Assembly (NCBI RefSeq): GCF_027594865.1
Contig: NZ_CP089391.1
Coordinates: 1,952,501 to 2,016,500 of the forward strand
Source of the DNA: Bradyrhizobium xenonodulans
GTDB lineage: Bacteria > Pseudomonadota > Alphaproteobacteria > Rhizobiales > Xanthobacteraceae
DNA length: 64,000 bases
Direction of reading: 5' to 3'
Of this stretch, positions 17,384 through 42,241 are shown piece after piece. A program made the position numbers and the translations under genes. The notes below the pieces were generated by a model. The model searched no databases. It saw nothing but the letters and a program-made list of their open reading frames with translations, and was not told the DNA's origin. Each line of letters opens with the position of its first letter. Position 1 is the stretch's first letter.

Positions 17384-17408
17384 AACCGTATTGCTGACGC
17401 AGCGTTCC
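17384..17408 (-). promoter_or_regulatory. EcfG-type general stress promoter for the DUF6496 gene
   Basis: Read on the minus strand the site is GGAAC (17408-17404), 16 nt, GGTT (17387-17384), which fits the alphaproteobacterial general-stress sigma consensus GGAAC-N16/17-CGTT with a first-base change in the -10 element. It lies 27 nt before the start codon at 17356. Confidence 0.7.
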
Positions 17409-17426
17409 AAACGCGCGGCGCGCGTC

Positions 17427-17621
17427 TCAGAACGAGTTCGCCAGCTCGATCTCCGCCTCGAGCACCTGGATGCGCCGCGCGGCCTCGGCGAACGACAGGT
17501 CCCGATCGTATTGTGCGGGCTGATACGCCTCGTCACTCAGCCGCTTCAGCTTGAGCCCCTGCGTCCGCGTCATCTGCTCGCTGAGAAAAGCCCTGGCGTC
17601 GTATTTACCCTGAACCTGCAT
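17427..17621 (-). CDS. DUF3072-like small protein (64 aa)
   Basis: The product ends QMTRTQGLKLKRLSDEAYQP then DRDLSFAEAARRIQVLEAEIEL. The pattern 'Met-Thr, helix, acidic linker, Leu-Ser-x-Ala-Glu-Ala-x-x-Arg-Ile' is that of the DUF3072 family, whose function is unknown. A GAGAGGACAG sequence precedes the ATG. It sits in a cluster of very short genes on both strands, several with stress-type promoters, although no such motif was found for this gene. Confidence 0.75.
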   Translation of the reverse strand: MQVQGKYDARAFLSEQMTRTQGLKLKRLSDEAYQPAQYDRDLSFAEAARRIQVLEAEIELANSF

Positions 17622-17682
17622 CTGTCCTCTCCATTCTGAAATCGTGACTTGACTATATGTTCTTATTTTGTTCTAACAAGCC

Positions 17683-17958
17683 ATGGACAACAGAATTAAT
17701 GAAATTCGACGTAAAATCAGCGCCTTGAGGCTGGAAATGGCCGATATCGAGGTGTCCGTGCGCGACCTCGTCAATCGCGATCGTGACTGCACAGAAAAGG
17801 CCCTGGCGCAGATGGATCTGCGCCGGAAGATCAACCTGCTGATCGGCGAATGGAAGGCAGCTGGCGGCGGCGACGTCCTGCCAAATGTCCGCGACCGGGT
17901 GCACCTTCGCACGGCGAAGACATCAGGCATTCCGCTGCGCCTGAGCGCGCGCCGCTAA
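17683..17958 (+). CDS. small coiled-coil protein of unknown function (91 aa)
   Basis: The product begins MDNRINEIRRKISALRLEMADIE, a heptad-like helix, followed by RDLVNRDRDCTEKALAQMDLRRKINLLIGEWK and a basic tail. No family is recognised. It is one of a row of small genes. The following gene has a similar helical layout (LRAEILELGSAIRQLQREGLD), so the two may be distantly related or act together. The region upstream is AT-rich with no GGAAC motif. Confidence 0.7.
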   Translation: MDNRINEIRRKISALRLEMADIEVSVRDLVNRDRDCTEKALAQMDLRRKINLLIGEWKAAGGGDVLPNVRDRVHLRTAKTSGIPLRLSARR

Positions 17959-17976
17959 GAGTCTTGGGAGCGCGCG

Positions 17977-18189
17977 GTGGAGGAAGACCCGGACGCGTAC
18001 CGGATTCTAAAACTGCGCGCCGAGATTCTCGAACTTGGCTCCGCCATCCGGCAGTTGCAGCGCGAAGGCCTCGACCATGCTGCGGCCCAGCTCCTGATCG
18101 CACGCAAGCGCGCGCAGCTCGAGCATCTCGTGAAAGCGAATGCCGTGGGGCGACAACAAGATGGCCCCGCCTTGTCGCGGGGCCATTAA
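17977..18189 (+). CDS. small helical protein of unknown function (70 aa)
   Basis: The GTG at 17977 lies 18 nt after the previous stop. The product, MEEDPDAYRILKLRAEILEL and onward, is one or two amphipathic helices ending in a short basic tail. The last codons overlap a GC-rich hairpin that looks like a terminator. No known family is recognised. It is probably co-transcribed with the gene at 17683. Confidence 0.65.
   Translation: MEEDPDAYRILKLRAEILELGSAIRQLQREGLDHAAAQLLIARKRAQLEHLVKANAVGRQQDGPALSRGH
18162..18185 (+). terminator. terminator-like hairpin at the end of the 17683-18189 pair
   Basis: TGGCCCCGC at 18162-18170 pairs with GCGGGGCCA at 18177-18185 around a 6-nt loop, with TTAATTGT after it. 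The stem lies inside the last codons of the gene ending at 18189. Confidence 0.6.
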
Positions 18190-18200
18190 TTGTCTCGTCG

Positions 18201-18245
18201 GCCGAGCTTACTTGGGGCCGCGCTTACTTGGGCCGAGCTTACTTG
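18201..18245. repeat. three tandem copies of a 15-bp unit
   Basis: Three consecutive 15-mers of the form G-GCCG[AC]GCTTACTTG occupy 18201-18215, 18216-18230 and 18231-18245. The third contains the stop codon and last two codons of the minus-strand gene ending at 18239. The other two repeat that gene end beyond its stop. Confidence 0.8.
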
Positions 18246-18484
18246 CTGTTGCTCATGCCCTTGCTGTTGTTGTTCGTCATGGTGCCGCCCTGATCGGAGC
18301 CGGGACCGGACCCCCCTTGGCTGGAGGGATCAGCACTCTTGGATTTCGTGTTCGCGCCAGTCGTCTGCGAGGACGAGGTCGAGGATTCGTGTTTCGCCTT
18401 GTGCGATTTGGCCTGCGCGGCGAACGGGGCGGCGGCAAGGCCGGTTGCCAACATCATGGCGAGAGCGAGCTTGGTGGTTTTCAT
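18239..18484 (-). CDS. small exported Ser/Gly/Asn-rich protein (81 aa)
   Basis: The product starts with a clear signal peptide (MKTTKLALAMMLATGLAAAP then FAAQA) and a low-complexity mature part rich in Ser, Lys, Gly and Asn (HESSTSSSQTTGAN, SQGGSGPGSDQGG). No domain is recognised; it may be an intrinsically disordered envelope protein. A GGAAC-N16-GGTT motif lies about 38 nt upstream, so general-stress control is likely. Its 3' end is repeated just downstream in a 15-bp tandem array. Confidence 0.8.
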   Translation of the reverse strand: MKTTKLALAMMLATGLAAAPFAAQAKSHKAKHESSTSSSQTTGANTKSKSADPSSQGGSGPGSDQGGTMTNNNSKGMSNSK

Positions 18485-18522: not shown

Positions 18523-18547
18523 AACCGTCATTCGCGGCAGGAGTTCC
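18523..18547 (-). promoter_or_regulatory. EcfG-type promoter for the exported protein at 18484
   Basis: On the minus strand: GGAAC (18547-18543), 16 nt, GGTT (18526-18523). It is 38 nt before the start codon. Confidence 0.65.
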
Positions 18548-18579: not shown

Positions 18580-18837
18580 TCAAAATTCCTTGTCTTCGGT
18601 AATGATGAACACGACGCCCGTGAGTGTCGCGCCGATCGCGAACGTCGTCACCAGCGTGACGACGAAGACGGCAGCGATCGAATCTCCGCCATGGTTCAGT
18701 AGATTGGCGACCGCCGGATTCGACAGGACGAGCGCGAGTCCGAAGACAAGGCCGAGGGCTGCGCCCATCATCGCATGCGTCATCAACTTGATGACGCCGG
18801 TCGGAGAGATGAGGCTCGGCGATTTTTTCGCGCGCAT
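18580..18837 (-). CDS. small two-span membrane protein (85 aa)
   Basis: Two hydrophobic segments (MMGAALGLVFGLALVLSNPA and AAVFVVTLVTTFAIGATLTG) flank a short loop, and the N-terminus is basic (MRAKKSPS), so the protein should sit in the inner membrane. No named family is recognised; similar small membrane proteins occur in related genomes. A full GGAAC-N16-CGTT motif is 26 nt upstream, the best promoter match of this group. Confidence 0.8.
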   Translation of the reverse strand: MRAKKSPSLISPTGVIKLMTHAMMGAALGLVFGLALVLSNPAVANLLNHGGDSIAAVFVVTLVTTFAIGATLTGVVFIITEDKEF

Positions 18838-18863: not shown

Positions 18864-18888
18864 AACGCGCCCGACGACCGCGAGTTCC
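18864..18888 (-). promoter_or_regulatory. EcfG-type promoter for the membrane protein at 18837
   Basis: On the minus strand: GGAAC (18888-18884), 16 nt, CGTT (18867-18864), an exact match to the general-stress consensus, 26 nt before the start codon. Confidence 0.8.
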
Positions 18889-19200: not shown

Positions 19201-19292
19201 GTTCTGATTGAATCAGAACCGAAGCTCCAGATTCTTGTTTCGACGCGTTTTCTTTCCGCGAACCGGAGACCACTTCGCTCGAAAACGCTTCT
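19201..19292. repeat. Bradyrhizobium-type intergenic repeat beginning GTTCTGATTGAATCAGAAC
   Basis: The element starts with a palindrome (GTTCTGATT, one base, AATCAGAAC, 19201-19219) and runs through TTGTTTCGACGCGTTTTCTT, CGCGAACCGG and CCACTTCGCTCGAAAACGCT. I recognise it as a common dispersed repeat of this genus. It fills the whole gap between two convergent genes. Confidence 0.75.
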
Positions 19293-20784
19293 AACCTGAA
19301 GCCCGCTGAAGGGCTTCAGAGGGAGCCGCGTCGAATTTGCTTGCGGCCGCCGGCGCTGCTGCGGTCTTCCGGGTCAGCGGCACCTCGAGGCGGCACAACA
19401 GGCCTTCGGCGCGCCAATCGAACAGCGCCTGCCCGCCAAGCTGGGACTCGACGCTCGCCAGCAGGCTCCTTGTGCCGAAGCCGCGAGATTTCGGTATCCC
19501 GACGAGCGGGCCGCCGGATTCCTCCCAGATCAGTGTGAGGAGATCGTCCTCGGCCTGCCAACCGATCGTGAGCCTTCCCGACCGCGTCGAGAGCGCACCA
19601 TACTTTGCCGAGTTGGTGAAAAGCTCGTGCAGCGCCAGCGCCAGCGTTTGAGCAGTCGCCGGCAGCAATTGAACTTCGGGACCGGCCAGCCTGATCTGGC
19701 CTCCGAGCGAATAGGGCGCAAGCTCCTCGTCGATCAGCTTGGAGAGCTCCGCGCCCTGCCAGCTCGACAGCGACAGGATGGTGTGCACGCGCGCCAGCGC
19801 ATTGATGCGCCCCTCGACCGCGTTGACATAGGCCTTGACCTCGTCGGCACGGGTGAGGCGCACGATCGACTGCGCCAGCGCCAGCGCGTTCTTGGCGCGA
19901 TGATCGACTTCCCGCGCCAGCAGATTCTGCCGCTCCTCGGCGCGCTTGCGCTCCGTGATGTCGACGGTGACCCCGCTGACACGCACGACGCGGCCGTTTT
20001 CGTCCACTGTTGCGGCCGCGGTGCCAACGCACCAGCGCACCTCGCCGTCAGGCCGCACCGTGCGGAACTCCGTCTCGTAGGCGCGGGTGCCCTTGTTGAA
20101 TTCGGCGATGGCCTTGCGCAGCTGATCGACGTCATCGGGGTGCAACAGCGCCTGCACGTTCGCCGGGTTGACCTCGAAGCGCTCCGGGGTCACGCCGAAG
20201 ATACGATATTGTCCCTCGTCCCACATCCAGTCGCCGCTGATCCAGTCCCAGTCCCAGGATCCCATCTTGCCGGCGGCGATCGCAAGGCTGCGCCGCTCTT
20301 CGCTCTCGCGCAGCTTCGCGGTGGAGTTCTCCAGTTCCGCTGTTCGTGCACGAACGCGGTCCTCGAGCTCCTGGTTCAGCCGTTCCAGCTCGCGGGTCTT
20401 GCGGTAGAGCTCGGAAAACACCCTGATCTTGGCGCGCAGCACCTCCGGCACGACCGGCACCGGCACGTAGTCGACCGCACCCATCTCGTAGCCGCGCAGG
20501 CGGTCGATGTCGCTGACCTGGATGGCCGAGATGAAGATCATCGCGGTCTTCTGGAAGCGCGGATGCTCGCGGATCATCGCGGCAAGCTCGAAGCCGTCGA
20601 GCTCGGGCATGCAGACGTCGACCAGGATCACCGCGATCTCGGTCTTGAGCAGCACCTCCAGCGCCTCGCGGCCGGACGAGGCGATCACGAGGTTCTCGCC
20701 GAGATCCTTCAGGATCACCTCGTAAGCGAGCAGCTTGGCCGGCTGATCGTCGACGAGCAGGATGTTGACCTTTTCGTGGTCCAT
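19291..20784 (-). CDS. receiver-PAS-HWE histidine kinase
   Basis: The 497-residue protein has an N-terminal receiver domain (phosphoacceptor D56 in VILVDVCMPELDGF), a coiled coil (about 122-165), a PAS domain with PAC motif (about 165-290) and a C-terminal HWE/HisKA_2-type kinase. The kinase has the HRxxN-type phosphorylation motif REVDHRAKNALALAQSIV and the ATP-binding ALHELFTNSAKYGAL and RGFGTRSL. The receiver lacks the usual conserved lysine: the DYxxKP position reads DYVPVP. HRxxN kinases are known inputs to the PhyR-EcfG stress cascade. ATG 20784 lies 13 nt after the giant kinase gene, so the two are likely co-transcribed, giant kinase first. Confidence 0.93.
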   Translation of the reverse strand: MDHEKVNILLVDDQPAKLLAYEVILKDLGENLVIASSGREALEVLLKTEIAVILVDVCMPELDGFELAAMIREHPRFQKTAMIFISAIQVSDIDRLRGYEMGAVDYVPVPVVPEVLRAKIRVFSELYRKTRELERLNQELEDRVRARTAELENSTAKLRESEERRSLAIAAGKMGSWDWDWISGDWMWDEGQYRIFGVTPERFEVNPANVQALLHPDDVDQLRKAIAEFNKGTRAYETEFRTVRPDGEVRWCVGTAAATVDENGRVVRVSGVTVDITERKRAEERQNLLAREVDHRAKNALALAQSIVRLTRADEVKAYVNAVEGRINALARVHTILSLSSWQGAELSKLIDEELAPYSLGGQIRLAGPEVQLLPATAQTLALALHELFTNSAKYGALSTRSGRLTIGWQAEDDLLTLIWEESGGPLVGIPKSRGFGTRSLLASVESQLGGQALFDWRAEGLLCRLEVPLTRKTAAAPAAASKFDAAPSEALQRASG

Positions 20785-20797: not shown

Positions 20798-27094
<6,297 letters not shown>

Positions 27095-27232
27095 ACTAAT
27101 TCCCCCGCAGGCGCCGGCCCGAATCCCAGGCGTGACGCGACTATCAAAATAGAGCGTCAGCCAAATTCGAAATCAAGCGCCAAGGTTGCGGCGCGAGGAA
27201 TTGGAACCTGCTTTGCTCAGCCCGATGCAGAT

Positions 27233-27257
27233 AACGACGAAGATCTCTAATGGTTCC
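27233..27257 (-). promoter_or_regulatory. EcfG-type promoter for the giant kinase gene
   Basis: On the minus strand: GGAAC (27257-27253), 16 nt, CGTT (27236-27233), an exact consensus match. It is 138 nt before the start at 27094, leaving a long leader. It is divergent from the site at 27316. Confidence 0.7.
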
Positions 27258-27315: not shown

Positions 27316-27340
27316 GGAACGGAGGATAGGCCCTGCGGTT
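27316..27340 (+). promoter_or_regulatory. EcfG-type promoter for the exported protein at 27370
   Basis: GGAAC (27316-27320), 16 nt, GGTT (27337-27340), ending 29 nt before the ATG. Confidence 0.7.
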
Positions 27341-27369: not shown

Positions 27370-27669
27370 ATGAGAGCCGGATGTGCCGTCTTTGTCCTGA
27401 CGTTGCTTGCTGCCGGATCGGCCTTCGCACAGGCCGGTGCGCCTAGCGGACGTGGAGCCGTGACAGGCGATCCGGCCGCAAGCTCGGCCACCCCGCATGC
27501 GGATTCGCCGACCACGGGCGCCGCGTCCAGGTCGAACCCGAGCGGCAGCGGCACCTCGACCTCGGGCGGCAAGGATGACAATGGCGATGCCGGCCGAGAC
27601 AGGATGCCCGAGAGCAATCGCACGGTGCGCCCGGAGAGCCAGCAGCATCATCCAGAAGACAAAAAATAA
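27370..27669 (+). CDS. small exported low-complexity protein (99 aa)
   Basis: MRAGCAVFVLTLLAAGSAFA is a signal peptide; the mature part is rich in Gly, Ser, Thr, Ala and Pro (SGSGTSTSGGKDDNGDAG) and ends with an acidic/histidine tail (QQHHPEDKK). No domain is recognised. It resembles the exported protein at 18239 in layout and promoter type, so the two may belong to one class of stress-induced disordered envelope proteins. The ATG at 27370 is preferred to TTG 27364. Confidence 0.75.
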   Translation: MRAGCAVFVLTLLAAGSAFAQAGAPSGRGAVTGDPAASSATPHADSPTTGAASRSNPSGSGTSTSGGKDDNGDAGRDRMPESNRTVRPESQQHHPEDKK

Positions 27670-27674
27670 CGCGG

Positions 27675-28187
27675 CTACTTGTCCGCCATGGTGCGCTCCG
27701 CTTCCTTCACCTGCGAGCGCAGCATCGGGAGCTGTTCACGCGCGAAGGCGGCGAGCGCGGCATTGTCAGGCGCCTTCAGATAATGCTCGAGCAGACTGAT
27801 GGCCGCTTCATATTCGGGAATCTGAGCAGCATAGAAACTCTTCACGTAAATCGGCCCGTCCGAGTTTTCAGGTTCGACGAGACCTGCACTCGCAGACGTT
27901 GTCTTGGCCGCGCGTGGCTCCGTCCCGATCGCGACCTGGATCTGCTTCAAAGCCTTGTCGCGCTTGGTGGCCTCTTCGGCGCGCAGGGCCGCGAGGTTCT
28001 TCACTTCCGCATTGCCCTTCAGGTCGGTGCTCTCCAGCAGGCCCTGCTGGAAGCGGCTGAAGGCGTAGAGGCCGGTCACGACATCGGCTGCCGTCGGCGC
28101 GCGAGCGCCGGCCGTTCGCTCGCCAACGCTGTCCGCGAATGCCGCGGTGCTGATGAACGCCAGGACGATCGCGACAAGAATCCTCAT
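27675..28187 (-). CDS. exported DUF4142-like protein (170 aa)
   Basis: After a signal peptide (MRILVAIVLAFISTAAFA) the protein is helical and ends with the DUF4142-like pattern YAAQIPEYEAAISLLEHYLK then DNAALAAFAREQLPMLRSQV, the 'H-E-x-A-I-x-L-F/L-E-x-Y, N-x-A-L-x-x-[WF]-A' arrangement also seen in the protein at 31542. The usual family histidines are partly lost, so it is a diverged member. Function is unknown; DUF4142 proteins resemble ferritin-like four-helix bundles. It converges on the gene at 27370 with only 5 nt between stops. Confidence 0.75.
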   Translation of the reverse strand: MRILVAIVLAFISTAAFADSVGERTAGARAPTAADVVTGLYAFSRFQQGLLESTDLKGNAEVKNLAALRAEEATKRDKALKQIQVAIGTEPRAAKTTSASAGLVEPENSDGPIYVKSFYAAQIPEYEAAISLLEHYLKAPDNAALAAFAREQLPMLRSQVKEAERTMADK

Positions 28188-28276
28188 GGCTCTTCAATGA
28201 CCGATGGCGTGCGAAGTTCCCTGAGCGTTACGATCCGGTAAGGGCGGTTGCGGGGCGTGAGTTCCGTCCCCAAATC

Positions 28277-28750: not shown

Positions 28751-28775
28751 GGAACATTCGTTGTGCCAGCGCGTA
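28751..28775 (+). promoter_or_regulatory. weak EcfG-type promoter before 28812
   Basis: GGAAC (28751-28755), 16 nt, CGTA (28772-28775); the last base deviates from CGTT. It ends 36 nt before the ATG at 28812. Confidence 0.4.
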
Positions 28776-28811: not shown

Positions 28812-29018
28812 ATGGCGCATTCCGACCACGGCATCGTCAAGGACAAGCGCGCTGAGGAGCAGCCGCGCGACAAGCAGCGCGCGCAGACCGTGCACAAGAC
28901 GGATCCAAAGGATTCTGCGTCGCGAGAGGCGACGCGCGATCCGAAGCTGAACGACAACGGCAAGACGCCAGGCTCCGGCACGACGCCGGATGATTCCGGC
29001 GCTGCCCCCAGCGGATAG
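28812..29018 (+). CDS. small very hydrophilic protein (68 aa), probably disordered
   Basis: The product begins MAHSDHGIVKDKRAEEQPRD and is almost devoid of hydrophobic residues (Lys, Asp, Arg, Thr, Gly, Pro rich), ending TPDDSGAAPSG. GAGAGGTCATC precedes the ATG. Such composition resembles desiccation-type (hydrophilin-like) proteins, but that is inference only. It is another short gene of the stress region, with a weak stress-type promoter. Confidence 0.7.
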   Translation: MAHSDHGIVKDKRAEEQPRDKQRAQTVHKTDPKDSASREATRDPKLNDNGKTPGSGTTPDDSGAAPSG

Positions 29019-29153: not shown

Positions 29154-29396
29154 CTACAGGTTATCTTCGGAATCGCCCTGGGTATGTCCATCGGGACCGC
29201 GGCCGAACACGCCGAAGCTGCTCGACTTCACGCCGGCTTTTGCGTCCACGCCTGCGGCCGCCAATCCGAGCTTGAGAAGCTCGCGGACCGCTGCCGCCCG
29301 CGTCGGCATACGATGTCTGAACCGGAAATCGTCAATAGCGGCCAGCTCTTCCGGCGAAAGCATGACTTGAAGGCGCTCGGCGCGAAGGTCGTTCAT
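29154..29396 (-). CDS. ribbon-helix-helix regulator (CopG/MetJ-like)
   Basis: The 80-residue protein begins MNDLRAERLQVMLSPEELAA, a beta-strand entering IDDFRFRHRMPTRAAAVRELLKLGLAAAG, the strand-helix-helix pattern of RHH DNA-binding proteins. A disordered tail follows. No toxin gene is adjacent, so it is probably a lone regulator rather than an antitoxin. A palindrome TTGAGTA-GTT-TACTCAA lies 24 nt before its start, a likely site for self-repression. Confidence 0.85.
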   Translation of the reverse strand: MNDLRAERLQVMLSPEELAAIDDFRFRHRMPTRAAAVRELLKLGLAAAGVDAKAGVKSSSFGVFGRGPDGHTQGDSEDNL

Positions 29397-29420
29397 GGTT
29401 GATCACGCAGATTGAGCAAG

Positions 29421-29437
29421 TTGAGTAGTTTACTCAA
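29421..29437. promoter_or_regulatory. candidate operator of the RHH regulator
   Basis: TTGAGTA at 29421-29427 and TACTCAA at 29431-29437 form a perfect 7-bp inverted repeat with a 3-nt spacer. Further half-sites appear nearby (ATTGAGCAA at about 29411 and AATTGAGTA at about 29482), all in the AT-rich gap between the divergent RHH gene and the gene at 29569. Confidence 0.6.
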
Positions 29438-29568
29438 TGAACGAATCTGGCTTGAGTTCCCCAAGAGTCCGCAAAATCGCCAATTGAGTAAAAATATATA
29501 GCAAAATCAATAAGTTAATATGAAACCATTCGCGCAATGGCGCATTCATTTGGGGAGGGAGACAGGCC

Positions 29569-29905: not shown

Positions 29906-30361
29906 TCGCGCCCAGCCTTCGGTCCTCTTGTGACCGGAGGTCATACGAAGCTTCCGCCTGAGCCACCACGCGGCGACGGAAACCATCGCCCAAGCGATAA
30001 TCGCGGTGGCGAACGCGCCGACGATGCTGGTCGTAACCACGAGATAGAACGTGGCCGCGAACGCTGCGAGCCCGATGCTTCCAAGCCCGGCGCCCGCGGC
30101 GTCCAGCGCCGCTGCCTGCCGCCCGCGTTTCCGTCCACTGAAGCCGACCTTCTCCTTGGCGCGGCGCTGATGGCTCTCGATCAGGGTTGCGCTGGCGCAG
30201 AAGATGGCGGGCAGGGCAAGGAAGAGCCCGCCGGTGGCGACGCCGAAGCGCGCGCCCACGAATCCCGCGAAGACTGTCGCGAGGCCCCCGAGCAGGAAGC
30301 GAACGCCGTATTCGTACCAGCGCGTTTGCGTGAGCACTGACGATGACAGTTTGACCAGCAT
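29876..30361 (-). CDS. DUF3147-type membrane protein (161 aa)
   Basis: Hydrophobic segments (FLLGGLATVFAGFVGARFG, GGLFLALPAIFCASATLIES and LAAFAATFYLVVTTSIVGAF) give about four membrane spans. The pattern with G-x-x-x-G-G-L-F-L-A-x-P-A-I is that of the DUF3147 family of short inner-membrane proteins. The start at 30361 overlaps the stop of the upstream paralogous gene by ATGA. It is the third gene of a minus-strand operon with PAP2 and another DUF3147 gene. Confidence 0.8.
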   Translation of the reverse strand: MLVKLSSSVLTQTRWYEYGVRFLLGGLATVFAGFVGARFGVATGGLFLALPAIFCASATLIESHQRRAKEKVGFSGRKRGRQAAALDAAGAGLGSIGLAAFAATFYLVVTTSIVGAFATAIIAWAMVSVAAWWLRRKLRMTSGHKRTEGWARSARSRSLFP

Positions 30362-30708
30362 CAGGCCGCACCTCCAAGACCCGCGAGCAGGCCGAAGGCG
30401 ACTGCAAGCCATACGGCAAAAGCGATGATGGTGGCGGGCAGCGCGGCGAGCCGAAACCTCATCAGGAGATGGCAGACAGCGAGGCTGTAGCAGGCGAGGG
30501 CGATCGCGCCGTAGATCATGGTCCAGCTTTCGGCCGCGGCATATTGCGGGCCGTGCCGAAAGATGGCGATGCCGAGCGTGGCGAGCGCGACCGACGGCGC
30601 GGCGCCGAGGAGGCCGCCAAAACTCTTGGGCCGCAGCATGTCGCCCAGAATTGCGAAGGCCGATACGATCACGCCGCCGGCGATGAAGCGCAGGATGTAT
30701 TCGGTCAT
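30361..30708 (-). CDS. DUF3147 family membrane protein (115 aa)
   Basis: MTEYILRFIAGGVIVSAFAI then LGDMLRPKSFGGLLGAAPSVALATLGIA and two more hydrophobic segments are the typical DUF3147 sequence. The start (30708) and the upstream PAP2 stop overlap as ATGA, and its own stop overlaps the next start likewise. The pair may form a heteromeric membrane protein; two short paralogues side by side is the usual look of small heterodimeric transporters, but no transport has been shown. Confidence 0.85.
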   Translation of the reverse strand: MTEYILRFIAGGVIVSAFAILGDMLRPKSFGGLLGAAPSVALATLGIAIFRHGPQYAAAESWTMIYGAIALACYSLAVCHLLMRFRLAALPATIIAFAVWLAVAFGLLAGLGGAA

Positions 30709-31280
30709 GGCGGCGCCCTCCTGTCCGAGGGCTTGCACACCAGGGTCCACGGCCTCAGCATCCGCTCGACAGCCACGCCGAGAACGAAGCCTGCGACGAC
30801 GTCGCTGGCCCAGTGGGCGAGCAACACCACGCGCGTCAGCGACAGCGCCGCCGCGATGGAGCGCACGAGGCGGCGCTGCGATCGCGGCAGCAGGCCGGCA
30901 GCGGATGCCAGCGCGCCCATGTGCACGGCATGTCCGGACGGGAAGGCGTCGCGCGGCCGCCCGGAGAAGGGAATGCCGCGGCGATGCCCTCGCACCGTCA
31001 GCCGGTCCGGCCTGATCTGGTCAAAGGCTGATTTCAGGATATGCGGCAGCACGGCCGTTGCCAGCGAAACGGCCAGGAGGTGATTGCCCGTGCGGCGTTC
31101 TGCGTCAGGGCGAAGCCGGGTGTAGAGCCAGCCCGCCGCGGCGAGGGCGAGCAACACATGCTCGTCCGCGCCCCAGGTCAGCGCCTCGGCCGTGTGCTCG
31201 AGCTTCGAGTTGGTATGATCCGCGATCTCGTCCGCGATCGCGATGTCGATCCGGGTGGGTTTGACTGTTACGAACGCCAT
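30705..31280 (-). CDS. PAP2-family phosphatase
   Basis: The 191-residue integral membrane protein has the three acid-phosphatase motifs: KSAFDQIRPDR (K-x6-RP), FPSGHAVHMG (PSGH) and LTRVVLLAHWASD (a weak SR-x5-H-x3-D, with Thr for Ser). It should remove phosphate from a membrane lipid phosphate such as undecaprenyl-PP or phosphatidate. It leads the operon with the two DUF3147 genes. A GntR- or EcfG-type site was not seen upstream. Confidence 0.88.
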   Translation of the reverse strand: MAFVTVKPTRIDIAIADEIADHTNSKLEHTAEALTWGADEHVLLALAAAGWLYTRLRPDAERRTGNHLLAVSLATAVLPHILKSAFDQIRPDRLTVRGHRRGIPFSGRPRDAFPSGHAVHMGALASAAGLLPRSQRRLVRSIAAALSLTRVVLLAHWASDVVAGFVLGVAVERMLRPWTLVCKPSDRRAPP

Positions 31281-31358
31281 CGGTCTGCAGTCAGCGAAAC
31301 GAGCTTTATGACGGTTTTGTAAAGCTCAGCCGCCGATGATTGTTCCTGCGCCGAAGCC

Positions 31359-31541: not shown

Positions 31542-32093
31542 CTACTTGGACTGCCCGACGCTCGGTGCCTTGCCGAGCTCCTTGGCCATGTCGAGATGGT
31601 GCTTCAGCGCCGGCAGCGTCTTGCCGGCCCAGTCCTTCAGCGCGGAATTGTCGCCGCCCTTGGCGTAGCGTTCGAACAGTGACACGGCGTCCTCATGGGC
31701 GCTGACCTGGTAGGAATTGTAGTCCGATGTGAAATCCTTGCCCGAGGCGTTCTTGAGCTTGTCGAGCTTGCTCTGGTGCGAGCTGTCGAGCGCGGTCGGC
31801 AGCGTGGCTTCGACCTTTCCGTCGCCGACGAGGGCCTTGAGCTCGCCGCTGGTCTTGGTGTGGTCGGTCACCATCCGCTGCGCGAAGGTCTTTTCCTGCG
31901 CATTGCCCTTCTGCTCGGCGAGCTTGCTCGATTCGATCTCGAACAGGTCGCTGATGGCGACCTCCTTGACGAAATCGGCGGTCGCAGGCGCAACGCCAAG
32001 CACAGAATTGACGCCGGTCTTTTCGCCGAGCGACTGGGCGAGCGCGGGGCCCGCGAAAAGCACGCAGGCAAGAGCAACAACGGTACGTTTCAT
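31542..32093 (-). CDS. exported DUF4142 family protein (183 aa)
   Basis: A signal peptide (MKRTVVALACVLFAGPALA) precedes a four-helix DUF4142 domain: FVKEVAISDLFEIESSKLAE, QRMVTDHTKTSGELKALV, YQVSAHEDAVSLFERYAKGG and LKDWAGKTLPALKHHLDMAKEL. The His and Glu pattern (DHTK, SAHEDA, LKHHLD) is intact, unlike the paralogue at 27675, so a metal site of ferritin-like type is possible. Function is unproven. A GGAAC-N16-TGTT motif lies 57 nt upstream. Confidence 0.92.
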   Translation of the reverse strand: MKRTVVALACVLFAGPALAQSLGEKTGVNSVLGVAPATADFVKEVAISDLFEIESSKLAEQKGNAQEKTFAQRMVTDHTKTSGELKALVGDGKVEATLPTALDSSHQSKLDKLKNASGKDFTSDYNSYQVSAHEDAVSLFERYAKGGDNSALKDWAGKTLPALKHHLDMAKELGKAPSVGQSK

Positions 32094-32150: not shown

Positions 32151-32175
32151 AACACGGCGGCGGGACCTGTGTTCC
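32151..32175 (-). promoter_or_regulatory. EcfG-type promoter for the DUF4142 gene
   Basis: On the minus strand: GGAAC (32175-32171), 16 nt, TGTT (32154-32151), 57 nt before the start at 32093. It overlaps the last codon of the gene at 32175-32402. Confidence 0.6.
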
Positions 32176-32402
32176 TAATTCGTGGGGTTGCGACCGGTGC
32201 GCGGATTGATCGGATCGGTTGGCTTGCGCCGCAGCCTCTCAGGCAGGAATGGCTCTGCCGGCGAGGCCGACGGATCAGCCCGCACGTCGGCGTGTCGCTG
32301 CGCCCGCTCATGCGGGGTCTGATTGGTATTGATCTGTCGCTTGACGTCGACCCCGTCGACGGGATCGTTGACGCCGTGCTGGATATCGCGGAAATCGCCC
32401 AT
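32175..32402 (-). CDS. small hydrophilic protein of unknown function (75 aa)
   Basis: GAGGTGAACC precedes the ATG. The product MGDFRDIQHGVNDPVDGVDV then KRQINTNQTPHERAQRHADV is polar and Pro-rich, with a low-complexity end (TDPINPRTGRNPTN). No family is recognised. An exact GGAAC-N16-CGTT motif lies 39 nt upstream, which supports both the gene and stress control. Confidence 0.7.
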   Translation of the reverse strand: MGDFRDIQHGVNDPVDGVDVKRQINTNQTPHERAQRHADVRADPSASPAEPFLPERLRRKPTDPINPRTGRNPTN

Positions 32403-32441: not shown

Positions 32442-32466
32442 AACGGCGCGTTTTCAGTGATGTTCC
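32442..32466 (-). promoter_or_regulatory. EcfG-type promoter for the gene at 32402
   Basis: On the minus strand: GGAAC (32466-32462), 16 nt, CGTT (32445-32442), an exact consensus match 39 nt before the start codon. Confidence 0.8.
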
Positions 32467-32498: not shown

Positions 32499-32524
32499 GG
32501 AACGATCACCCCGTTACGCAAGTT
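32499..32524 (+). promoter_or_regulatory. EcfG-type promoter for the PRC-barrel gene
   Basis: GGAAC (32499-32503), 17 nt, AGTT (32521-32524), 31 nt before the ATG at 32556. It is divergent from the site at 32442. Confidence 0.55.
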
Positions 32525-32555: not shown

Positions 32556-32930
32556 ATGTTGAATCAAGGCGAAATGGATCGCGCCGAGATGGGCCGCCTG
32601 ATCGGCAGCGACAAGGTCGAGGGAACATCGGTCTATGGCGCCGATCGCAGCAAGATCGGCTCGATCGAACGCGTGATGATCGACAAGGTCAGCGGCAAGG
32701 TGTCCTACGCCGTACTGGGTTTCGGCGGATTTCTGGGGCTCGGCAATGATCACTATCCGTTGCCGTGGCAGTCACTGAAATATGACACGGAGCTCGGCGG
32801 CTATGTCACCGGGATCACCGCCAAGGCACTCGAAGGTGCGCCGAGATACAGCGAACGCAGCGACTGGAACTGGGGCGATGACGCCGCGGTTCGCGGCATC
32901 AATTCCTATTACGGCGTTCCCTTCGCCTAG
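32556..32930 (+). CDS. PRC-barrel domain protein (124 aa)
   Basis: The domain is LIGSDKVEGTSVYGADRSKI then GSIERVMIDKVSGKVSYAVLGFGGFLGLGNDHYPLPW, the standard PRC-barrel pattern. GGAGAATTGAG stands before ATG 32556. The frame is open far upstream, but there is no start signal there and it crosses two opposite-strand genes. Stress-type PRC-barrel proteins of this size are common in this group; their binding partners are mostly unknown. Confidence 0.93.
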   Translation: MLNQGEMDRAEMGRLIGSDKVEGTSVYGADRSKIGSIERVMIDKVSGKVSYAVLGFGGFLGLGNDHYPLPWQSLKYDTELGGYVTGITAKALEGAPRYSERSDWNWGDDAAVRGINSYYGVPFA

Positions 32931-33217: not shown

Positions 33218-33242
33218 GGAACCATGCTCCAGCGACGTTGTT
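33218..33242 (+). promoter_or_regulatory. EcfG-type promoter before the efflux pair
   Basis: GGAAC (33218-33222), 16 nt, TGTT (33239-33242), ending 66 nt before the GTG start at 33309. Confidence 0.5.
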
Positions 33243-33308
33243 GGGCCCGCGACGCGCGAGTTGGCCTCGGCGGCTGCCGCCCGTTTCGTCTCGAGAAAGG
33301 TGTTCACC

Positions 33309-34460
33309 GTGGATGCTCAGACACGGGAGCGTGATCCGTCCGCGGAGCAACCGCAAAGGGCGAAGGAAGCTCCAAAGACCTCTCCTGATCAGACCCGCGA
33401 CGCCAGCGACCAGAAGGCGACGACGCCATCGCTGCGCGAACGGCTTCGCGAGCATTGGCTGCTCGCAACGGTCGGCGCCGTCGTGTTGATTGCGGCGCTC
33501 GTTGGCGGGCTGCTCTACTGGCTCGACGTGCGTCACTATGAATCCACCGACGATGCCTTCGTCGCCGCGCGCAGCTTTTCGGTGGCGTCGAAGGTCGGCG
33601 GCTACGTGACCGACATCCCAGTCACCGACAACCAGCACGTCAAGGCCGGCGATCTCCTCGCCAGGATCGACGAACGCGACTATCGCATTGCCATCGATCA
33701 GGCGGACGCGCAGGTCGCTGTTGCCAAGGCGAACATCGCCAATGTCGAGGCGCAGATCGACTCGCAGCAGGAGCAGATCAAGCAGGCCCAGGCCCAGCTC
33801 GAACAGGCGCAAGCGCAGCTCCAGTTCTCGCAGGAGGAGTTCAAGCGCGCGGAAGATCTCGTCGAGAAGGGGGCTGGCACCGTGCAGCGCCAGCAGCAGA
33901 CCCGTTCTGATCTTCAGGCGCAGCAGGCCAACACCGAGCGTGCCAAGACCGCGGTGGCAGCCGCGGAAGTCGGCATCAAGACGCTGCAAGCGCAGCTCGA
34001 AGGCGCCAGGGCGCAGCTCCAGCAATCTCAGGCGCAGCTCGACCAGGCCAGGCTGAATTTGCAATACACCAGCGTCGTCGCCGCGCAAGCCGGCCGCGTC
34101 GTCAAGCTCTCGGGCGCCAGGGGCACCTTCGTCACGGCAGGGCAGAGCCTCATGATGTTCGTGCCTGACGAGGTCTGGATCGTCGCCAATTACAAGGAGA
34201 CGCAGCTCAACGACATGCGACCGGGCCAGCCGGTCGAAATCCGCATCGATGCCTATCCCGGCCGCAAGCTCACCGGACACATCGATTCCGTGCAGCCGGG
34301 TTCGGGCACTGCCTTCAGCCTGCTGCCGGCGGAGAACGCCACCGGCAATTACGTCAAGGTGGTGCAGCGCGTGCCGGTCAAGATCGTGGTCGACAACTGG
34401 CCGGCCGATCTGCCGGTCGGACCCGGCATGTCGGTCGTGCCCTGGGCCAGGGTGCGATGA
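33309..34460 (+). CDS. HlyD/EmrA-type membrane fusion protein
   Basis: The 383-residue protein has a cytoplasmic N-terminus, one span (LLATVGAVVLIAALVGGLLYW, residues about 50-71), a biotinyl-lipoyl half (TDDAFVAARSFSVASKVGGYV), a long coiled-coil hairpin rich in Gln/Ala (QAQAQLEQAQAQLQFSQEEF) and the returning lipoyl and beta-barrel part. It bridges the inner-membrane transporter encoded next to an outer-membrane channel. GTG 33309 with GAGAAAGG upstream is preferred to TTG/ATG 33261, which would add a non-homologous stretch. It overlaps the transporter gene by ATGA. Confidence 0.93.
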   Translation: MDAQTRERDPSAEQPQRAKEAPKTSPDQTRDASDQKATTPSLRERLREHWLLATVGAVVLIAALVGGLLYWLDVRHYESTDDAFVAARSFSVASKVGGYVTDIPVTDNQHVKAGDLLARIDERDYRIAIDQADAQVAVAKANIANVEAQIDSQQEQIKQAQAQLEQAQAQLQFSQEEFKRAEDLVEKGAGTVQRQQQTRSDLQAQQANTERAKTAVAAAEVGIKTLQAQLEGARAQLQQSQAQLDQARLNLQYTSVVAAQAGRVVKLSGARGTFVTAGQSLMMFVPDEVWIVANYKETQLNDMRPGQPVEIRIDAYPGRKLTGHIDSVQPGSGTAFSLLPAENATGNYVKVVQRVPVKIVVDNWPADLPVGPGMSVVPWARVR

Positions 34461-36076
34461 CGGATGCGACGCAAGGCGGCGCGTCCGCGGGAGGCTGGTC
34501 GCCGGAGCGCTCGGCGGCCGGCGGGCATAATCCCTATCTGATCGCCTTCGTGGTCTCGATCGCGACCTTCATGGAGGTGCTCGACACCACAATCGCCAAC
34601 GTCGCGCTGCGCCACATCGCCGGCGGGCTCGCGGTCGGCATCGACGAGAGCACCTACGTCATCACCAGCTATCTCGTCGCCAACGCCATCGTGCTGTCGA
34701 TTTCGGGTTGGCTGGCGACCATGATCGGCCGCAAGCGCTTCTACATGATGTGTGTGGCGACGTTCTCGGTCGCCTCGCTGCTGTGCGGCTTCGCCTGGAA
34801 TCTGGAGTCGCTGGTGCTGTTCCGCATTCTTCAGGGGCTCGGCGGCGGCGGCATGGCCACCAGCGAGCAGGCGATCCTCGCCGACTCCTTCCCGCCGCAC
34901 AAGCGCGGCCAGGCCTTCGCGATCTATGGCGTTGCGGTGGTGGTCGCGCCGGTGGTCGGTCCGACGCTCGGTGGCTGGATCACCGACACCTATTCCTGGC
35001 ACTGGGTGTTCCTGATCAACGTGCCGATGGGGCTGCTCTCGCTGTTCCTGGTCGGCACGCTGGTCAGGGAGCCGTCGGGTGCGGAGGAGGAGAGGGCGAA
35101 GCTGCTGCGCAAGGGCCTGCGCGTCGACTATGTCGGCTTTGCGCTGGTCGCGATCGGGCTCGGCTCGCTGGAATACGTGCTCGACGAAGGCCAGCGCAAT
35201 GACTGGTTCGGCTCGAACATGATCGTGGTCTTCGCGGTGCTCGCGGCGGTCTCGCTGCTCGCACTGATCCCCTGGGAGCTGACGCGCGAGGATCCCATCG
35301 TCGACCTCCGGCTGCTTGGCCGCCGCCAGTTCGCTGCCTGCTTCCTAGTCATGCTCGGCACCGGCGCGGTGCTGATCTCGACCACGCAGATTTTGCCGCA
35401 ACTGCTCCAGACCGAGCTGAACTACACGGCGATGTTGGCCGGGCTCGCGCTGTCGCCCGGCGGCATCGCGACGCTGGTGCTCATGCCCGTCGTCGGCCGC
35501 CTCGTCAGCACGGTGCAGCCGAAATATCTGATCATGTTCGGTGCCGCCATCGTCGCGTTCTCGATGTGGCATCTCACCGGGCTCACCGGCGACATCACCT
35601 ACGGCTATGCCGCGCTATCGCGCATCTTCCTCGCGATGGGCCTGCCGTTCCTGTTTCTGCCGGTGACGACCGCATCCTATGACGGCGTGCCGCCCGACAA
35701 GACCAACCAGGCGTCCGCGCTGATCAACGTCGCCCGCAACATCGGGGGATCCATGGGCGTGGCGCTGGCCCAGACGATTCTGGCACAGCGCCAGCAATTC
35801 CATCAGAGCCGCCTGATCGAGCACGCCGCGCCGTCCGACCTCGGCTACCAGCAGACCATCGAGACGATGACGCGCTATTTCCAGGCGCAGGGCTCGAATG
35901 CGAGCGATGCGGCCTCGCAGGCAGTCGCATGGGTCGGAAAGACCTTGCAGCAGCAGGTCGATTTTCTCGCCTATATCGACGTGTTCTGGACGCTCGCGAT
36001 CGTCGCGGTGCTGATGATCCCGACGGCGGCGGCGCTGCGGCCGATCAAGCTGGGTGCGCCGGCGCGGGGGCATTGA
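34457..36076 (+). CDS. EmrB/QacA-type (DHA2) MFS efflux transporter
   Basis: The 539-residue protein has 14 predicted membrane spans. The DHA2 signatures are present: FMEVLDTTIANVALRHIAGGL in span 1 (motif D1), LATMIGRKRFYM (motif A), RILQGLGGGGMATSEQAIL (motif B) and GPTLGGWITDTYSWHWVFLIN (motif C). It should expel hydrophobic drugs or metabolites using the proton gradient with the EmrA-like partner. No regulator of the MarR or TetR type is directly adjacent; a stress-type promoter precedes the pair. Confidence 0.94.
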   Translation: MTDATQGGASAGGWSPERSAAGGHNPYLIAFVVSIATFMEVLDTTIANVALRHIAGGLAVGIDESTYVITSYLVANAIVLSISGWLATMIGRKRFYMMCVATFSVASLLCGFAWNLESLVLFRILQGLGGGGMATSEQAILADSFPPHKRGQAFAIYGVAVVVAPVVGPTLGGWITDTYSWHWVFLINVPMGLLSLFLVGTLVREPSGAEEERAKLLRKGLRVDYVGFALVAIGLGSLEYVLDEGQRNDWFGSNMIVVFAVLAAVSLLALIPWELTREDPIVDLRLLGRRQFAACFLVMLGTGAVLISTTQILPQLLQTELNYTAMLAGLALSPGGIATLVLMPVVGRLVSTVQPKYLIMFGAAIVAFSMWHLTGLTGDITYGYAALSRIFLAMGLPFLFLPVTTASYDGVPPDKTNQASALINVARNIGGSMGVALAQTILAQRQQFHQSRLIEHAAPSDLGYQQTIETMTRYFQAQGSNASDAASQAVAWVGKTLQQQVDFLAYIDVFWTLAIVAVLMIPTAAALRPIKLGAPARGH

Positions 36077-40923: not shown

Positions 40924-41067
40924 GATGCTAACCCGATCTTGATTGGCCGGACTGCGGGTTCCCGCGCTATAATGGCCATCCTCGTCACCTTTTCCCATCA
41001 CCGAAGAGTCTGCTTGCGCGGCATCGCCGCGCATCCGGCGGGCTGAAATATCCTGGGAGCCAGTTTC

Positions 41068-41886
41068 ATGGATCATCTGAAGACACAGGGCATCAGCATG
41101 CCCAAGCTCGGCCTCGGCACCTTCCGCATGCAAGGCGATGCCTGCCGCGCCGCGGTCGAGAGTGCGCTGTCGATCGGCTATCGCCACATCGATACCGCTG
41201 AGATGTACGGCAACGAAGAACCCATCGGCGCGGCGCTCGCCGCCGCCCGTCTGCCGCGCGCCGAGCTGCATGTCACGACCAAAGTCTGGCATGAGAACCT
41301 CAGTCCCGATGCGATCCGCCGTGCCTTCGATGCGAGCCTGAACAAGCTGCGGCTCGACCATGTCGACCTCTATCTCGTGCATTGGCCGTCGAAAGCCGCG
41401 AACTGGGGCGCTGTGTTCGAGACCCTGATGAAGCTGAAGGAGGAGGGGCGCACGCGGGCAATTGGCGTTGCCAATTTCACCACGGCGCTGCTCAAGGTCG
41501 CGGTCGAGGACGTCAAGGCGCCGATCGCCTGCAACCAGATCGAATATCATGCGATGCTCGATCAATCGAAGGTGCTGGCCTATCTCAACGCCAAATCGAT
41601 CCCGCTGGTCGCCTATTGCCCGCTCGCGCAGGGGCGTATCGCCTCGGATCCGGTGCTGGCCGAGATCGGCGCCAGGCACAATGCGACCGCAGCGCAGGTC
41701 GCCTTGAAATGGCTGCTCGATCAGGACGGCGTTGCCGCGATCCCGAAGGCCTCACGCCGCGAGAGCCAGCAGGCCAATCTCGACGCGCTGAAGATCACGC
41801 TCGACGATGCCGACCGCAACAAGATCGCCGCGCTGCCGAAGGACAGGCGCTGCGTCAATCCTGGCTTCGCGCCTGCGTGGGATTAG
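41068..41886 (+). CDS. aldo/keto reductase
   Basis: The 272-residue TIM-barrel NADPH reductase has the complete AKR tetrad: Asp and Tyr in IDTAEMYGNEE, Lys in HVTTKVWHENL and His in YLVHWPS. The C-terminal AIPKASRRES binds the NADPH phosphate. It is closest in appearance to 2,5-diketo-gluconate reductase-type enzymes, but the real substrate is unknown. A good TATAAT sequence at 40968-40973 may be its -10 element, though no well-spaced -35 was found. A bidirectional terminator follows. Confidence 0.94.
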   Translation: MDHLKTQGISMPKLGLGTFRMQGDACRAAVESALSIGYRHIDTAEMYGNEEPIGAALAAARLPRAELHVTTKVWHENLSPDAIRRAFDASLNKLRLDHVDLYLVHWPSKAANWGAVFETLMKLKEEGRTRAIGVANFTTALLKVAVEDVKAPIACNQIEYHAMLDQSKVLAYLNAKSIPLVAYCPLAQGRIASDPVLAEIGARHNATAAQVALKWLLDQDGVAAIPKASRRESQQANLDALKITLDDADRNKIAALPKDRRCVNPGFAPAWD

Positions 41887-41912
41887 CCTGACGCGCTTTC
41901 AATACACAAAAG

Positions 41913-41936
41913 AAATGGCCCCGCGAGGGGCCATTT
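41913..41936. terminator. bidirectional terminator after the aldo/keto reductase
   Basis: AAATGGCCCC (41913-41922) and GGGGCCATTT (41927-41936) form a perfect 10-bp stem with a GCGA loop, between two convergent genes. Confidence 0.85.
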
Positions 41937-41958
41937 CCATTCCACGTTGCGTTGCGCA

Positions 41959-42186
41959 TTAGTCCCAATGGTGACGGTGGCTGCGCTTGATCACCACGAC
42001 CCTGTCGCCGCGATGGTGCCAGCCCCGATGCCAGCCGTGGTCGCGATGCTCGCGGAATTCGGCGCGGGCGCCGTACGGGCCGTGATCATGACCACGCTTG
42101 ATCACCACCGTCTCCGCACTGGCCAGCGTCGGCGCCGCGATCGCGAGCGCACCGAGAGCCGCAACCACATAACCAAGCTTCTTCAT
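41959..42186 (-). CDS. small exported histidine-rich protein (75 aa)
   Basis: GGAGGAGG precedes ATG 42186. After a signal peptide (MKKLGYVVAALGALAIAAPT then LASA) the mature part is rich in His, Arg and Gly (HDHGPYGARAEFREHRDHGW, HRGWHHRGDR, RSHRHHWD). Metal binding in the periplasm is plausible from composition alone. A GGAAC-N16-GGTT motif 30 nt upstream suggests general-stress control. Confidence 0.85.
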   Translation of the reverse strand: MKKLGYVVAALGALAIAAPTLASAETVVIKRGHDHGPYGARAEFREHRDHGWHRGWHHRGDRVVVIKRSHRHHWD

Positions 42187-42216
42187 GATGTCCTCCTCCA
42201 ATCCAATGCAAATCTA

Positions 42217-42241
42217 AACCGCGCATTCGATCGAACGTTCC
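42217..42241 (-). promoter_or_regulatory. EcfG-type promoter for the His-rich protein
   Basis: On the minus strand: GGAAC (42241-42237), 16 nt, GGTT (42220-42217), 30 nt before the start at 42186. Confidence 0.65.

Follow-up and report, generated by a model that had tools for sequence, protein, structure and literature searches.

Results

The window analysed here is a stretch of 64 kb from the genome of Bradyrhizobium xenonodulans, and the features of interest are sites of the form GGAAC-N16/17-nGTT (equivalently GGAAC-N17/18-GTT; hereafter strict sites) and the genes that follow them. Three minus-strand genes, each behind an EcfG-type promoter on the same strand, encode a small basic DUF6496 protein of 95 aa (17069..17356; Pfam PF20106, E 9.5e-28; promoter at 17384..17408), a protein of 81 aa with a signal-peptide-like start by eye (18239..18484; promoter at 18523..18547), and a small hydrophobic protein of 85 aa, membrane-type by eye (18580..18837; promoter at 18864..18888, with a CGTT -10 box); the last two have no Pfam match. 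The next minus-strand unit is an operon for a giant hybrid histidine kinase of 2098 aa, recognized by its Pfam domains (20798..27094), and, 13 nt behind it, a REC-PAS-HWE kinase of 497 aa (19291..20784), with a CGTT-bearing EcfG-type promoter (27233..27257, minus strand) 138 nt 5' of the operon. Divergent from this promoter is another on the plus strand (27316..27340). The gene behind it, 27370..27669 (plus strand), was overlooked by the gene caller and encodes a protein of 99 aa with a signal-peptide-like start by eye and no Pfam match over cut-off.

Farther right, strict sites precede a DUF4142 protein of 183 aa with a signal-peptide-like start by eye (31542..32093, minus strand; PF13628, E 5.9e-44; promoter at 32151..32175, minus), a small hydrophilic protein of 75 aa without a Pfam match (32175..32402, minus; motif at 32442..32466, minus), a PRC-barrel protein of 124 aa (32556..32930, plus; PF05239, E 1.3e-10; promoter at 32499..32524, plus), and an EmrAB-type efflux pair (33300..36076, plus; promoter at 33218..33242, plus) consisting of an EmrA-like adaptor (33300-34460) and a DHA2/EmrB-family MFS permease (34457-36076), for which the NCBIfam models TIGR00711 and TIGR00998 score over and below cut-off, respectively. 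Outside this cluster, a site at 42217..42241 (minus) precedes a small His-rich protein of 75 aa with a signal-peptide-like start by eye and no Pfam match (41959..42186, minus). No Rfam family scored over cut-off in the window.

The pattern scan returned 12 strict sites in the whole window, against an expectation of 1.9 (sd 1.4, maximum 7) in 300 dinucleotide shuffles, close to the two or so chance matches per 64 kb that the first-pass annotation had estimated. Its ten strict sites were all found where it had placed them and are intergenic and start-facing, 26-138 nt 5' of a start codon, as it had described; the other two matches, at 32866 and 55103, lie within coding sequence. The -10 box is exactly CGTT at three of the ten listed sites and another nGTT at seven. 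With 122 copies of GGAAC in the window, some matches are to be expected at any spacing, and eight-base matches read into GC-rich sequence could in principle account for the sites, but GGAAC-N17-GTT is found 10 times while the counts at the 22 remaining spacers between 8 and 30 are 0-3. Sigma-70-type consensus promoters show no excess between 17000 and 34500 (2 found, 1.6 expected).

The orthologues also speak against chance. Strict sites are retained before the orthologues of nine of the ten genes, in 82-100% of loci: 17384 in 27/27, 18523 in 25/25, 18864 in 27/27, 27233 in 81/99, 27316 in 56/57, 32151 in 93/104, 32499 in 86/91, 33218 in 53/54 and 42217 in 22/22. The exception among the listed sites is 32442, strict in 17 of 85 loci, with 62 of the 85 having no GGAAC within 200 nt and its box columns only 0.54 identical. 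By comparison, 21 of 29 other reading frames with orthologues have no strict match at all. In the alignments of eight conserved sites, the box columns are 0.95-1.00 identical and the spacers 0.45-0.75 (for 17384, 1.00 and 0.50), although two alignments are well conserved outside the site too (0.74 for 18580 and 0.85 for 41959); site-to-start distances vary by a few nt. These comparisons draw on 120 orthologue loci, some from the same genome, and 7 of the 80 named ones carry a name other than Bradyrhizobium; the distinct upstream sequences in the eight conserved-site gene groups number 28, 26, 28, 90, 91, 82, 53 and 22, window included. The retention counts of these eight sites required a nearly complete N-terminal match and at least 200 nt of upstream sequence, those for 27316, 32442 and the variant elements below dropped loci with <150 nt upstream or <40% identity, and the alignments dropped duplicates and matches of <45% identity. 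Outside the genus, the DUF4142 relatives of Rhodopseudomonas (3/3) and Tardiphaga (1/1) have no GGAAC within 150 nt upstream. Taken with the shuffles and spacing controls, the conservation before orthologues refutes chance for the nine conserved sites, and as an account of the whole set we consider chance negligible; it is a possible origin of 32442, 32866 and 55103. The match at 32866 was set aside as a promoter: it lies inside the PRC gene, and its partial retention (17/68) is ascribed to the coding sequence.

Several genes between the strict sites are preceded by GGAAC elements with other -10 boxes. One, GGAAC-N16-CGTA at 28751..28775 (plus strand), precedes a small hydrophilic protein of 68 aa without a Pfam match (28812..29018, plus) and had been called weak; it is indeed a near match, yet CGTA is nearly invariant (87/90 loci, none with strict GTT). 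Three further conserved elements were absent from the first-pass list. GGAAC-N16-CATT at 29436..29460 (minus) precedes a protein of 80 aa, ribbon-helix-helix-like by eye and without a Pfam or NCBIfam match (29154..29396, minus), and is strict in 74 of 84 relatives; TTGAGT/ACTCAA repeats lie close to this promoter. The other two are tentative: GGAAC-N16-CATT at 28196..28220 (minus; strict GTT in 17/86), 8 nt before a divergent DUF4142 copy of 170 aa (27675..28187, minus; PF13628, E 1.1e-8), and a GGAAC element with CTTT-type -10 boxes at 31321..31346 (minus; strict in 8/82), before a probable operon of a PAP2 phosphatase (30705-31280) and two DUF3147 proteins (29876..31280, minus).

A genome-wide scan, which the first-pass annotation had proposed, gave a divided answer. 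The bare pattern GGAAC-N16/17-CGTT is not in excess (79+71 matches versus 85+77 for the reversed pattern), so that the analysis turned to position and spacing; among upstream sites in 1,080 kb of genome outside the window, N17 accounts for 17, against a mean of 2.05 and a maximum of 6 for 21 other spacers. This sample consists of flanks and grid samples, with the window and regions L022-L027 (6 of 40 sample regions, chosen for holding nepR or a motif match) left out. The motif signal thus emerges only when intergenic position and exact spacing are required. By eye, further genes with the motif include those for OtsA, Ku, LigD, Dps and superoxide dismutase, and in B. diazoefficiens trehalose synthesis by otsA/otsB is described as controlled by the general stress response (PMC8092242). 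Of the variant -10 boxes, ATT at N17 is mildly enriched upstream outside the window (9 versus a mean of 2.2, maximum 6) and TTT at N18 slightly (8 versus 2.67, maximum 6), and GTA is without enrichment (0 versus 1.13). Entries with CATT, GATT and AGTA occur in the table of S. melonis promoters (PMC6599016).

Profile searches located a single ecfG-nepR-phyR locus in the genome. The sigma gene scores over cut-off with NF009192, an NCBIfam model not named EcfG, and phyR with NF006623; nepR is over the Pfam NepR cut-off and below that of NCBIfam. The phyR-nepR intergenic region contains no strict site and, by eye, GGAAC-N16-GTT at best. Eight further proteins of the genome resemble EcfG at E<=1e-6. 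One of them is encoded 565 nt past the right end of the window and was set aside as an EcfG paralogue, being 39% identical and having, by eye, an anti-sigma-like neighbour of another type.

Nine of the strict sites (eight of them conserved) and the conserved variants are packed into a block of ~16 kb, which agrees with the concentration between 17 and 33 kb noted at first. With the match at 32866 dropped and two missed starts added, nine start-linked sites fall within 17 kb, whereas 20,000 gene-start shuffles gave at most 6 and none reached 9. The retrained gene caller skips the PRC gene and 27370-27669 and so counts 32866 instead of 32499 and 27316; its raw count is 8 sites in 17 kb, reached in 0 of 20,000 shuffles, one of which did reach 7; without 32866 the count is 7, which none of another 20,000 shuffles reached. 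The scan statistic excluded regions L182-L194, which had been chosen by matches, and L195-L201.

The DUF6496 and 18580 genes adjoin the kinase pair in 27 of 40 loci of the genus, together with a varying share of the remaining block. In 12 of 13 outgroup loci that do not have most of the other block genes, the kinase operon has a GGAAC at a similar place, with -10 boxes other than GTT. A GGAAC element is also found before the PRC-barrel gene in 17 of the 20 outgroup homologues read (20 of the 33 matches listed), and 3 of these 20 adjoin the kinase pair.

The giant kinase contains a HAMP array (11 Pfam stretches), GAF, HisKA and HATPase domains and three REC stretches, and its HAMP part matches PDB 9trk and 9trj (E 1.9e-120 for 9trk, named histidine kinase, Gcn4p). 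The second kinase has an HWE domain (PF07536, E 1.3e-22) with an HRAKN (HRXXN) phospho-acceptor motif at residues 295-299. Neither sequence has a clear membrane segment. In the N-terminal receiver domain of the HWE kinase, both acidic residues, the Asp and the Ser are kept (41/41), and where a Lys is usual there is none (V-P-V in 40 sequences, a gap in one). Kinases for the motif comparison were selected by an HRAKN-like pattern, which all 40 loci yielded, so that this selection accounts for part of the motif's conservation; HRXXN also occurs in 5 of 6 other HWE-domain sequences of the genome and is therefore not by itself specific for a PhyR kinase.

Discussion

The exact-spacing enrichment, the near-invariant boxes flanking diverged spacers, the single ecfG/nepR/phyR locus and the match to a published motif support the one-regulon reading of the first-pass annotation, and we put the probability that these sites are a segment of the sigma-EcfG regulon, with EcfG dependence deduced from the DNA, at roughly nine in ten. 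In the established pathway, which we infer operates here, stress would lead an HWE-type kinase to phosphorylate PhyR, phosphorylated PhyR would remove the anti-sigma factor NepR from EcfG, and EcfG-polymerase would then transcribe its targets. Here, these would be the small exported or membrane-type proteins, two DUF4142 proteins, the DUF6496 and PRC-barrel proteins, the EmrAB-type pump and the kinase operon. Both the phosphorelay and the reading of the sites by EcfG are thus predicted, and for each small protein a stress function would apply at the level of its class.

A competing explanation of the sites is that they are real ECF promoters which a different ECF sigma factor, overlapping with EcfG at GGAAC, reads in whole or in part. 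A -35 element of GGAAC is common to many ECF sigma factors, the genome encodes the eight further EcfG-like proteins, and conserved elements of the block carry CGTA, CATT or CTTT -10 boxes. However, nGTT or CGTT at 16/17 nt from GGAAC is the EcfG consensus published for other Alphaproteobacteria (PMC7083833, PMC3892343, PMC6599016), the nearest paralogue, beside the window, is only 39% identical and by eye neighbours a different anti-sigma factor, and EcfG -10 boxes are themselves described as variable, up to 14 types being reported (PMC7083833, section 10). We therefore regard another sigma factor as improbable. In the passages that describe them, the EcfG promoters of B. diazoefficiens, R. 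etli, Sphingopyxis and Sphingomonas share the same -35, spacer and nGTT, with CGTT favoured; they likewise lie mostly <100 nt from the start, and many of their targets are proteins of unknown function. In Sphingomonas melonis, a motif-bearing PRC-barrel gene ranks with the top EcfG-dependent genes (PMC6599016), and in the portions of the literature that we drew upon, only this Sphingomonas work and one Sinorhizobium paper turned up for DUF4142 or PRC-barrel proteins with EcfG, or for DUF4142 with Bradyrhizobium stress.

The small unknown proteins of the block, its efflux pump and its sensor kinases are very likely switched on together under stress, and the two-kinase operon, whose HRXXN HWE kinase is a plausible PhyR kinase, probably serves as a feedback arm within its own response. 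As described, the Paks of S. melonis (PMC5898713; reviewed in PMC8103513) are alike in having HWE and HRXXN and no clear membrane segment, and in being encoded away from the phyR locus; the kinase here differs in its N-terminal receiver fusion and in its place 13 nt behind the gene of a poly-HAMP hybrid kinase. The giant kinase is tied to the EcfG pathway by promoter and operon, which would make it a putative component. Fungal group III hybrid kinases are poly-HAMP histidine kinases. A HAMP array is likewise common to the giant kinase and the poly-HAMP histidine kinases of PDB 9trk and 9trj, but unlike those it has three REC stretches and a GAF domain. From its description, S. melonis orphan hybrid histidine kinase #1746 is likewise encoded by an EcfG-dependent gene (PMC6599016).

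How the block arose, and whether its packing matters, is where readings diverge most. The presence of GGAAC before outgroup kinase loci that do not have most of the block genes suggests that the block built up around a kinase pair that is older and stress-controlled. It is tempting to go further and to picture a lineage-specific stress island around an older EcfG-controlled two-kinase phosphorelay, in which the poly-HAMP kinase would sense stress and signal to the receiver of the HRXXN kinase and from there to PhyR, the response thereby re-tuning its input, while nearby units would have gained EcfG promoters or moved in within the clade that carries the island; in this full form we consider the idea rather unlikely. 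Somewhat better odds, if still short of even, go to a packing that is incidental, with independent EcfG targets side by side and a kinase pair that does not take part in activating the response. Each gene does have a promoter to itself, relatives of the PRC and DUF6496 genes that carry GGAAC elements occur elsewhere in outgroup genomes, motif sites in the sampled genome are mostly single, and HRXXN is widespread among its HWE sequences; on the other side stand a packing far beyond random placement, the company that the DUF6496 and 18580 genes keep with the kinase pair across the genus, and the possession of HRXXN by the kinase.

Promoters of this class are known already; new in detail are their clustering and the feedback operon predicted here. 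A possible orthologue in USDA110 is bsl2596, which appears as a bare table line, and the 2009 work on EcfG of B. japonicum may already list some of the genes described here. Nine strict sites lie within 16 kb here, and the accounts of other species mention no such block in the parts available to us. The general stress response is reported to be needed for efficient soybean infection in Bradyrhizobium (PMC8092242). The near-invariant, non-consensus CGTA box offers a direct test of how much variation an EcfG promoter tolerates. For the genus, the analysis places about a dozen uncharacterised genes in a likely regulon on the basis of conservation instead of a lone motif, and it singles out one kinase pair as a candidate for both the input and the feedback arm of the general stress response.

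Packing and placement of EcfG-type sites

A pattern scan of both strands finds 12 strict GGAAC-N16/17-nGTT matches in the window (bases 1952501-2016500 of a single-contig, 8.28-Mb genome), against 1.9 ± 1.4 (maximum 7) in 300 dinucleotide-preserving shuffles, which bears out the first-pass estimate that about two would occur by chance. With the n counted in the spacer, GGAAC-N17-GTT occurs ten times, and every other spacer from 8 to 30 gives 0 to 3 matches. The intergenic, start-facing placement proposed in that annotation holds for 10 of the 12, with a start codon 26-138 nt away; the matches at 32866 and 55103, both inside genes, had rightly been left off its list. The gene behind the 27316 site is 27370-27669.

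The concentration at 17-33 kb noticed in the first pass is likewise upheld. In 1,144 kb made up of the window, its flanks and grid samples, none selected by motif matches, a strict site stands at 31 of 1,072 gene starts, eight of them inside a 17-kb span here; in 20,000 random reassignments of the sites, seven fell within 17 kb once and eight never. Owing to gene-calling errors, this count of eight includes the coding match at 32866 and leaves out 32499 and 27316. When corrected, nine of 32 sites (1,074 starts) lie within 17 kb, and the reassignments reach at most 6 (again 20,000); with 32866 only dropped, seven remain, a number never reached in the corrected run. A smaller group of four strict sites within 5 kb lies before small genes near 3.9 Mb (region L182, 15919, to L183, 305), in a region fetched on account of its motif matches.

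Conservation before orthologues

Orthologues of the region's genes were placed in 120 loci (80 + 40; 73 of the 80 are named Bradyrhizobium, which marks the window as DNA of this genus), and a site was scored as kept if a strict motif stood within 300 nt upstream (200 nt for 27370-27669). It is kept at every orthologue of the DUF6496 gene at 17069 (27/27), the small-protein genes at 18239 (25/25) and 18580 (27/27) and the His-rich gene at 41959 (22/22), and at most of those of 27370-27669 (site 27316; 56/57), the EmrA-like gene at 33300 (53/54), the PRC-barrel gene at 32556 (86/91), the DUF4142 gene at 31542 (93/104) and the giant kinase (81/99). Among the other reading frames with orthologues, 21 of 29 are without any strict match upstream, and wrong spacers give a mean of 0 to 5.6 matches per gene. 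In alignments of eight groups both boxes match the window at 95-100% identity, against 45-75% for the spacer; columns conserved in the boxes and diverged in the spacer are the pattern that a promoter should leave, the flanking sequence itself being well conserved at 18580 (0.74) and 41959 (0.85). Both the promoter architecture and the conservation of the sites are matters of observation. The first-pass site at 32442 fares poorly in this comparison: it is kept in just 17 of 85 loci, 62 of the 85 are without GGAAC within 200 nt, and identity over its box columns is 54%. Beyond the genus, the DUF4142 gene retains the strict motif in a Xanthobacteraceae genome and lacks it in three Rhodopseudomonas loci, one Tardiphaga locus and one Hyphomicrobiales locus.

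Variant -10 boxes

The site at 28751, called weak in the first pass, has no strict nGTT box, its box being CGTA, and is nonetheless a conserved element, GGAAC-N16-CGTA, in 87 of 90 orthologue loci. Before the small gene 29154-29396 the box is CATT in the window and strict in 74 of 84 loci; most loci of 27675 have CATT (strict in 17/86), and 30705 has CTTT-type boxes (strict in 8/82). In sequence sampled beyond the window there is a mild enrichment of ATT at N17 (9 vs 2.2) and a slight one of TTT at N18 (8 vs 2.67), and none of GTA (0 vs 1.13). For Sphingopyxis, flexibility of the EcfG -10 box has been described (PMC7083833, section 10), and a Sphingomonas table has CATT, GATT and AGTA among its entries (PMC6599016). 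The variant elements at 28751 and 29460 are probably EcfG-type promoters; those at 28220 and 31346 are tentatively so assigned. The -10 of the 27675 element ends 8 nt before the ATG (28196-28220), and transcription from it, if it is used, would begin nearly at the start codon and yield a near-leaderless mRNA. Well-conserved TTGAGT/ACTCAA repeats at 29390-29500 surround the promoter of 29154-29396, a ribbon-helix-helix-like small gene, and point to a possible autorepressor of a promoter of the EcfG type.

The sigma system and other sites with the motif

In a genome-wide motif scan, as proposed in the first pass, the bare pattern GGAAC-N16/17-CGTT, with no intergenic condition, shows no excess over its backwards form (150 vs 162). 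In 1,080 kb from elsewhere in the genome (34 grid samples, each 20 kb long, plus 400 kb of flanking sequence), intergenic, start-facing GGAAC-GTT matches number 17 at spacer N17 and 5 at N18; the 21 other spacers average 2.05 and none exceeds 6. Other motif-bearing genes, their starts judged by eye and some of their regions selected by motif matches, include OtsA-, Ku-, LigD-, Dps- and superoxide-dismutase-like proteins, the type of target expected of a general stress response. Between the Ku-like and LigD-like genes two strict sites overlap and diverge (region L055, 7008-7040).

The whole genome has a single NepR match, and its gene (region L022, 9373-9705) lies beside a sigma gene (8825-9373), with phyR (9813-10634) in the same locus; the nearest paralogue of this sigma factor is 39% identical. 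Just beyond the right end of the window is a further ECF sigma gene with, by eye, an anti-sigma-like neighbour (region L012, 529-1314).

The kinase pair

The giant hybrid kinase (20798..27094, minus strand; site 27233; 2,098 aa) has a HAMP array of 11 stretches, GAF, HisKA and HATPase domains and three receiver stretches, with no clear membrane segment found; its HAMP part has PDB relatives (9trk at E 1.9e-120). About 50 nt downstream of its GGAAC, within 27190-27260, a GGTTCCA in opposite orientation is also well conserved. Thirteen bases downstream of the gene begins that of a REC-PAS-HWE kinase (19291..20784, minus strand) with the sequence HRAKN. In the receiver domain of the latter, D12, D13, D56 and S86 are kept in 41 of 41 sequences, and the stretch where receiver domains usually have a Lys reads V-P-V in 40 and is a gap in one. 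The activators of PhyR are described as HRXXN HWE kinases (PMC5898713, PMC8103513), but since five of the six other HWE-domain matches encoded in the genome have HRXXN, the motif fails to single out this kinase. Another HRXXN HWE kinase gene (region L202, 1171-2679, ~2.19 Mb) stands ~300 nt behind a small gene bearing a strict site.

History of the island

Forty genus loci around the HWE kinase were compared. In 27 (kinase identity 86-95%) the DUF6496 and 18580 genes adjoin the kinase pair and the share of other genes varies, these loci being 20-kb stretches of which many end short of the efflux pair. Kinase identity is 77-84% in the remaining 13, which have the kinase pair without DUF6496, 18239 or 18580, and five of them (L170, L171, L177, L178, L180) have a nearby PRC, PAP2 or EmrA-like gene with a strict site. 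GGAAC lies 133-152 nt upstream of the giant kinase in 12 of these 13 outgroup loci; it was not found in L181, where the contig ends ~155 nt upstream. The box at the right spacing is GTT in four (L169, L170, L171, L177), ATT in seven and neither in L172. Elsewhere in the outgroup genomes, DUF6496 relatives (regions L209-L222) have the strict motif in 0 of 14 cases and GGAAC-N16-nATT in 12 of 14. Of the PRC homologues examined in these genomes, 17 of 20 have the strict motif. Because GGAAC stands before the giant kinase in loci lacking most of the island genes, the kinase operon seems to have come under control of the stress type before the island existed; from these comparisons, the island itself looks to have been put together, or retained, in a single part of the genus.

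Discussion

The promoter class and the regulon are already known, and EcfG is said to control more than 100 genes in B. diazoefficiens (PMC8092242); it is the degree of packing in this block that is unusual, and a partial literature search found no description of the block. In Sphingomonas, a PRC-barrel gene with the same motif is a top EcfG-dependent gene. The most likely scheme, which takes the identity of the sigma factor and the relay by inference from what is already established, is that HWE kinases would relay stress signals to PhyR, that PhyR-P would sequester NepR, and that EcfG-polymerase would then read GGAAC-N16/17-nGTT and activate the genes for small proteins of exported or membrane type, for DUF4142, PRC-barrel and DUF6496 proteins, for an EmrAB-type pump and for the kinase pair. 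An EcfG promoter before the kinase operon predicts feedback on the general stress response.
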